Positions 13,893-14,640 of a stretch of 40,238 nt of DNA are shown here, in pieces. The notes below the pieces were generated by a model. The model ran no database searches. It saw only the letters and a program-made list of their open reading frames with translations, and was not told where the DNA came from. Numbering within the stretch: the stretch's first letter is position 1; every line of letters begins with the position of its first letter. The position numbers and the translations under genes are program-made. The DNA lies in assembly GCA_017461865.1 (NCBI GenBank), contig JAFTVQ010000096.1, positions 1 through 40,238 of the forward strand, given 5' to 3'. The stretch is from Lachnospiraceae bacterium (GTDB taxonomy: Bacteria > Bacillota > Clostridia > Lachnospirales > Lachnospiraceae).

Positions 13893-13909
13893 TACTCCGC
13901 TCCTCTCCT

Positions 13910-14344
13910 CTACAACCACTGAATAAATGCCGTCTTGTCACTGCTGTTATATCCTGCTCCCGCATAAAAATCCAGCGTGCTCTGCTCTTTAGAGCCGGTC
14001 AGAAGCATCATCTTATAACAGTTATTTTCCTGCGCAATCTCTCTGGCATAATTGAGACACTGCGTTGCGTATCCTTTACCTCTGTACTCCTTGTGCGTCA
14101 CTACATTTTCCACGAAAGCGTACGGCCGCACACCCCGCGTCAAATTCGGAATAATCACACAGACACAAGAAGAAACTATCTTTCCATCCACTTCATTTAA
14201 TATCAAATGATGATTTTCATCCTTTATAATCGAATTCCATGTATTTTGTAAATACTGTGTATACTCCGGAATATCCTTTTCATGCAAATATAAATATAAA
14301 TGCAACAATTCATCCAAATCGTTTTCATTTGCTTCTCTGACCAA
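13910..14344 (-). CDS. GNAT family N-acetyltransferase
   Basis: This is a 144-residue single-domain GNAT protein. The acetyl-CoA-binding motif A is YRGKGYATQCLNYA (about residues 95-108) and the later motif includes NCYKMMLLTGSKEQSTLDFYAGAGY. Such enzymes transfer an acetyl group to an amine; the substrate cannot be read here. The start is a TTG at 14344, with AGGAG 10 nt and GAGG 3 nt upstream; the protein then begins VREANENDLDEL, as GNAT domains usually do. The leader reaches into a large inverted repeat that also feeds the divergent 14641 gene. Confidence 0.9.
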   Translation of the reverse strand: MVREANENDLDELLHLYLYLHEKDIPEYTQYLQNTWNSIIKDENHHLILNEVDGKIVSSCVCVIIPNLTRGVRPYAFVENVVTHKEYRGKGYATQCLNYAREIAQENNCYKMMLLTGSKEQSTLDFYAGAGYNSSDKTAFIQWL

Positions 14345-14432
14345 TGTCCTCTATCTCCTATACGCAAAATTCCTTTTTCCACATCATAACATAGTTTTTC
14401 ATCTTTTGGAAATGCTACATTATAGAGTTTTT

Positions 14433-14461
14433 ATTATGAAGCAAATTCGGCGAGACATCAA
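14433..14461 (-). promoter_or_regulatory. Candidate promoter of GNAT operon in left arm of inverted repeat
   Basis: On the minus strand TTGATG (14456-14461), a 17-bp spacer and CATAAT (14433-14438) form a good promoter. It is the mirror image of the plus-strand promoter in the right arm, including the CTCGCCGAA spacer segment. A second possible site is an extended -10, TGTTATGAT, at about 14383-14391 nearer the gene. Confidence 0.6.
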
Positions 14462-14573
14462 CTTTCTTTACAAAGACTGTTGAAAAACGTCGGCACTTGG
14501 ATTTTAGGCGCAGCCGAAAATCCTTAGTACCGCTACGTTTTTCACCAAGTGAGAACGTGTCTGCGTAAAAAAG

Positions 14574-14602
14574 TTGATATCTCGCCGAACTGCTCACATA
14601 AT
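14574..14602 (+). promoter_or_regulatory. Candidate promoter of 14641 gene in right arm of inverted repeat
   Basis: TTGATA (14574-14579) and CATAAT (14597-14602) are separated by 17 bp, each matching 5 of 6 consensus bases. The expected start near 14609 gives a leader of about 32 nt containing the outer repeat block and AAGGAGG. Confidence 0.7.
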
Positions 14603-14640
14603 AAACCATTACTATCATTTCCAAAAGGAGGAACAATAAA

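Follow-up and report, generated by a model that had tools for sequence, protein, structure and literature searches.

The window analyzed here, a 40,238-nucleotide stretch of contig JAFTVQ010000096.1 from a Lachnospiraceae bacterium, contains a 225-bp palindrome between two divergently oriented genes. The locus raises the question of what this palindrome is. The initial annotation had described it as an inverted repeat with mirrored, outward-facing promoters and had read it either as a miniature inverted-repeat element that delivers promoters or as a symmetric, regulated divergent promoter. The inverted repeat itself was confirmed on reading the sequence. Its outer 12 bp match perfectly (CTTTTGGAAATG at 14403–14414 and CATTTCCAAAAG at 14616–14627), and an arm pair of 39 bp (14430–14468 and 14567–14605), which is 79% complementary, holds the -10 and the -35/spacer blocks. 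The competing inner pairings that had been reported also exist, 14478–14490 with 14535–14547 on the one hand and cacttgg (14494–14500) with ccaagtg (14545–14551) on the other. The palindrome is real and far beyond chance: the 225 nucleotides fold end to end at -88.4 kcal/mol on the plus strand and -102.5 kcal/mol on the minus strand (z = -12.1 and -12.8, respectively), and none of 200 shuffled sequences folded equally well. The parts of the palindrome and its neighboring features are given in Table 1.

Table 1. Coordinates of the palindromic element, its parts, the promoter-like sites and the adjacent genes in the window.
Feature	Positions	Strand	Basis or remark
GNAT acetyltransferase gene, left of the palindrome	13910–14344	-	PF00583, 3.3e-16
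Predicted native leftward promoter, TTTCCA-18-TATGAT, TG before -10	14383–14412	-	Overlaps the outer left arm, which supplies the -35
Whole palindromic element (arms and core)	14403–14627	.	End-to-end fold; site without element in three congeners
Left arm	14403–14470	.	Outermost ~16 bp native (-35 region of the leftward promoter), remainder inserted
Mirrored outward promoter-like site, TTGATG-17-CATAAT, left arm	14433–14461	-	9/12, consensus match only
Conserved family core	14471–14565	+	Covariance model R1 match, 92.6 bits (G000:C38:14471-14565)
Core 5' strand, conserved, GACTGTTGAAAAACGTCGGCACTT	14475–14498	+	Alignment A1 and pair counts
Inner hairpin, variable (GGATTTTAGGC / GCCGAAAATCC)	14499–14523	+	Letters vary among copies, pairing retained in many
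Core 3' strand, conserved, TTAGTACCGCTACGTTTTTC	14523–14542	+	Alignment and pair counts; served as search pattern
Mini-hairpin GT-GAGA-AC, bulges from one strand, marks core orientation	14549–14556	+	
Right arm	14566–14627	.	Compared with empty sites
Outward promoter-like site, TTGATA-17-CATAAT, right arm	14574–14602	+	10/12, consensus match only
DUF2383-like four-helix protein gene, 144 aa	14641–15075	+	PF09537, E 0.0013, below cut-off

In its own genome the full 225-bp sequence is single, and its center has relatives. The suggested search of the same genome and of related genomes revealed dispersed copies of an inner part of ~95 bp with the recurring layout GACTGTTGAAAAACGTCGGCACTT-hairpin-TTAGTACCGCTACGTTTTTCAC-CAAGTGAGAACG-TGTC, while the arms proved private to each copy. 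Copies were found in 24 of 145 relatives by DNA search. With a covariance model (R1) built from the core alignment, 7, 8, 10, and 12 copies were detected in four genomes of the window's genus, and matches occurred in 123 of 299 sampled Lachnospiraceae genomes, often with at least 10 copies in each. All matches in a class-level sample of 291 genomes were to Lachnospiraceae. The named collection contributed at least 120 stretches, including some from the cultured Butyrivibrio hungatei DSM 14810, and these named matches were almost all to Lachnospiraceae (Blautia, Butyrivibrio, Ca. Fimimorpha, C. symbiosum). Searching Rfam returned no family match, only sub-threshold, spurious miRNA hairpins; the whole 225-bp query had no match in plasmids and phages, nor did the element match viral contigs. 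A literature search covering Lachnospiraceae, Clostridia, Butyrivibrio, and Blautia found no description of a repeat of this kind. The hairpin family is widespread in gut and rumen Lachnospiraceae and apparently uncatalogued.

The arrangement of some copies deserves mention. At G168:C21:12436-12900, three same-strand copies with a period of 187 bp form a tandem array. When two cores lie close together, they follow a minus-then-plus order in 11 of 12 pairs and never a plus-then-minus order (loci L255, L189, L182, L187, L210, L154, L157, L161, L271, L138, and L282), a possible sign of a dimeric mobile unit or of oriented targeting. Many draft contigs end inside the core (L171, L176, L177, L180, L197, L202, L206, L224, L254, and L262), and the element seems to break assemblies. 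Many copies, together with an open reading frame like the end of a Firmicutes-type PolC, were found in a genome labeled 'Muribaculaceae bacterium' (JAMPHJ01..., L170, L182, and L190), a label that may be wrong. We also noticed a second family of long hairpins at L120 and L126 (around 1900-2240), which has a conserved core of its own (GAAGAAGCTTTAGAATTAGTTAGAGCC ... GGCTCTTAGTAATTCTTAAGCAATGAG) with variable inner hairpin and arms, and which sits where L094 has the present element.

The comparison with vacant sites that had been recommended was informative. The site of the palindrome in the window is empty in three congeners (L033–L035), where a stretch of 39 bp leads from the leftward promoter straight to the ribosome site of the ortholog of the DUF2383-like gene. 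Clean empty sites from which the arms are absent too were found in sister species for other copies, at L087/L104 (225 bp), at L302/L352 (173 bp, with flanks 94–97% identical), at L291/L358, at L376/L429 and L430, and at L392/L432. Arms and core arrive together. The possibility that the arms were host target palindromes predating the insertion was considered and rejected, as the empty sites lack arms; the outer ends can nevertheless be host-derived. The outer left CTTTTGGAAATG of the window's copy is retained in the empty sites L033 and L034, and L035 has CTTTTGGAAAT instead. The outer part of the right arm, CTATCATTTCC, repeats in inverted form the native left flank seen in L033, GGAAATGATAG. 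Since G002 natively has CCAAAAGGAGG at the position of the right end, the outermost 7 bp of this end in the window may be native as well. Arm pairing also extends into native flank at L077, L084, and L090 (groups A and E).

At the ends of the insertions, a 3-bp overlap (GGA, ATC, or TGT) was present at three sites and was 0 or unclear elsewhere, and no constant terminal bases were found at the compared insertion sites. Losses were recognized too: in L367 and L362 the deletions lie at short direct repeats, ATTTAT and CTGTAT, and L106 retains the arms with only a partial core. At two gene-end loci (L106, L112, and L115 vs. L117, L116, and L121), related species differ in what they carry at the same place: the complete element, arms around a reduced core, or a simple hairpin resembling a terminator.

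Given the dispersed cores, the empty site in the window and the inversion of the core within the family described below, the part of the initial annotation that proposed a miniature inverted-repeat mobile element is upheld, and the palindrome is most probably a single insertion of a mobile, non-autonomous DNA hairpin that occurs across the Lachnospiraceae.

The part concerning promoters fared differently. The two mirrored, outward promoter-like sites do exist as consensus matches, one in each arm. The count of such promoters around the palindrome is 11, which is not above chance when compared to shuffled sequences (8.0 ± 3.6). The reading of the element as a mobile promoter that brings outward promoters to neighboring genes would agree with the two matches of 9–10/12 in the window's copy, with its site between divergent genes and with the precedent of known MITEs such as the Correia elements of Neisseria, which can carry promoters and can invert (PMC10969869). 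Among 192 copies, however, 22 outward promoter-like sites were found vs. 19 expected from shuffles, and only two copies, that of the window and L076, have such sites in both arms. The promoter hexamers belong to the arms, which are not conserved; what is conserved is the internal core and not the promoter blocks. The gene context of the copies is tandem (95) more than divergent (28). Promoter delivery as the nature of the element is thus not borne out, and we consider this explanation very improbable.

A local, symmetric regulated divergent promoter selected at this locus only, the other reading offered initially, would account for the location between divergent genes and for the mirrored hexamers, but it is already contradicted by the recurrence of the core at unrelated loci and by the three congeners, which have the 39-bp stretch and no palindrome; it is extremely improbable. 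The mirrored promoter-like sites are probably a by-product of palindromy, and the palindrome itself is better viewed as an inserted hairpin.

As for transcription at this locus, the leftward promoter with the best conservation support is the predicted native TTTCCA-18-TATGAT, which is retained in three congeners without the element. To the right, the AGGAGG site of the 144-aa gene, whose orthologs are 95, 90, and 89% identical in G001, G003, and G002, respectively, lies at 14626–14631 and touches the end of the palindrome. Judged by motif and position, the insertion may have supplied the rightward gene with a new -35/-10, and the right-hand promoter-like site may now serve it. On the left side (region 13894–14374), and in this genome only, the GNAT gene separates the yceD-side operon from its conserved promoter; the three congeners have no GNAT gene at this place and have GNAT homologs that are 73–76% identical elsewhere. 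A perfect 12/12 match to the sigma-70 consensus, TTGACA-17-TATAAT, is found upstream of the yceD gene (13482–13454, minus strand).

Compared with a MITE, conservation within the element is inside-out: the core is conserved, while the arms vary between copies and pair within each copy. In 192 distinct copies with a median arm length of 49 bp, the median pairing score was 25 for a copy's own arms vs. 1 for arms of different copies, which pair no better than chance. In 99.4% of cells the closing bases of the mini-hairpin are paired, and they have changed on both sides; in the core pairs 398 double-sided changes were counted (slid controls, 47–96) vs. about 31 one-sided changes. G.T and A.C combinations are about equally frequent in the arms (315 vs. 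349) and in the core (97 vs. 96). Because selection on one transcribed strand would prefer G.U over A.C, this equality indicates that pairing is held at the DNA level.

These observations also bear on whether the copies form a family of structured non-coding RNA genes with compensating stems. Such genes would be expected to show the strong covariation, the bulging GNRA-like mini-hairpin and the conserved bases on the unpaired side that are seen here, but there is almost no G.U, the core is inverted relative to its flanks at 5 of 13 loci, the copies are present or absent among congeners, and no Rfam family corresponds to them. An RNA gene family is very doubtful for these reasons, and a mobile hairpin acting as DNA remains the preferred reading.

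The arms differ not only between distant copies. In G089, pairs of copies with cores differing by at most 1 base have arms that are ~26% different, and despite this divergence the two arms of each copy match each other. Between orthologs at the same locus, divergence is about 4% in the core, and in the arms it is roughly that of the flanks (about 6%). Among 65 single changes in orthologous arms there were 9 compensated changes vs. about 1 expected if changes were independent, the latter being our own estimate from the observed per-site rate. The majority of the differences between orthologous arms are single changes without compensation, so in-place homogenization is modest. Homogenization in place alone cannot explain the ~26% difference between arms whose cores are at most 1 base apart, and arm differences between near-identical cores are hard to explain by ordinary copying.

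It had also been suggested that the core be checked for inversion, and inversion was indeed seen within the family. In the clade of G089, G358, and G360, the core lies in the opposite direction at 5 of 13 orthologous loci, as called from draft assemblies with decisive core scores, while the order of the flanks and outer arms is unchanged. The inversion could be read directly at L301/L357 and L302/L353. Starting in unique flank and crossing the arm, one reaches the first core bases that tell the orientation after about 45–60 bp, less than the length of a read, and a simple misassembly is therefore unlikely. The groups within the window's genus yielded no inversion except for one weak, ambiguous call (L095). 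From these comparisons, the core appears to be often flipped between related species.

We propose that the element would extrude as a single-strand hairpin or a cruciform during replication, and that the arms would then be re-matched by template switching or by recombining with each other. Such an exchange would sometimes draw adjacent host sequence into the arms, which in the window's copy would be the native left flank, copied in inverted form to the right; the same exchange would flip the core. Template switching at imperfect inverted repeats homogenizes arms and inverts spacers (PMC8604942), and it would explain the matched arms, the foldback capture of flank, the inversion, and the microhomology deletion without a special enzyme. 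Dispersal would need more than template switching. An enzyme or a replication-coupled process may read the asymmetric core, with its bulging mini-hairpin, and move the element; given that the asymmetric core and mini-hairpin are the only constant feature, the mover presumably reads the core as a single-strand hairpin. It is conceivable, although we hold it to be rather unlikely, that only the core is read and copied and that the arms are re-made by foldback at or soon after insertion, partly from the target, so that there would be no fixed ends and no dedicated terminal-repeat transposase. The arms may instead drift in source lineages, with homogenization acting repeatedly.

Neither an autonomous partner nor a transposase was found, the family tested being Y1_Tnp (PF01797). 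This family would be the candidate mover if the copies were REP/REPIN-like elements mobilized by an IS200/IS605-type Y1 transposase (RAYT). The copies are palindromic and intergenic with a single-strand-like asymmetry, and the same opposed orientation in 11 of 12 close pairs is as in REP dimers (PMC3733652). Y1_Tnp, however, is encoded in 63 of 123 genomes with the element vs. 102 of 176 genomes without it (Fisher p = 0.29). Among 50 high-copy genomes 23 lack it, G089 with its many near-identical cores being one of them, and the element is 160–225 bp in length, not 20–40. Mobilization by RAYT is accordingly very improbable, and the non-autonomous hairpin is preferred.

About 40% of the genomes sampled from this bacterial family, a dominant one in the gut, carry the repeat, and its conserved middle and private arms do not match the current view of MITE or REP recognition. 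With its core inversions and roughly 200 readable copies, the repeat is a natural setting in which template switching at palindromes can be tested in wild bacteria. The copies also seem to break assemblies; they alter the intergenic DNA between genes and can be misread as promoters, terminators, or RNA genes.

Like prokaryotic MITEs, the element is short, free of open reading frames and mostly intergenic, has inverted repeats and is polymorphic in its presence, and clean insertions of 173–225 bp without an open reading frame occur as a unit at many sites. Unlike in MITEs, the terminal repeats are not common to the copies, the conserved part is internal, no constant target duplication was evident, and promoters are not enriched. 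Integron attC sites are likewise hairpins whose stems are poorly conserved and whose strand is marked by asymmetric bulges, a resemblance that we take as a lead only; in contrast to attC sites, R and L boxes were not recognized on an informal look, and the copies are single dispersed insertions rather than cassettes. A recombinase-driven inverton would have fixed inverted-repeat sites and a dedicated recombinase; the arms of the present element are not a fixed site. The in-place inversion at 5 of 13 orthologous loci is like that of the Correia elements. Similar to REP/REPIN sequences, which are GTAG/CGTC-tagged palindromes, the copies are dispersed and often paired in opposed orientation (PMC3733652), but they differ in their length and in having neither an unpaired terminal GTAG/CGTC tag nor an association with Y1/RAYT; membership among the GTAG/CGTC REPs was considered and rejected, since the CGTC/GTAG strings lie inside the core stem and not at unpaired ends. 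Template switching at short inverted repeats predicts exactly the arm homogenization and spacer inversion seen here (PMC8604942), although the spacers in those cases are a few bases within fixed sequence, whereas the present spacer is a core of ~95 bp in a mobile, dispersed family. The element is akin to MITEs and REPs by its behavior, and by their defining features it is a member of neither.
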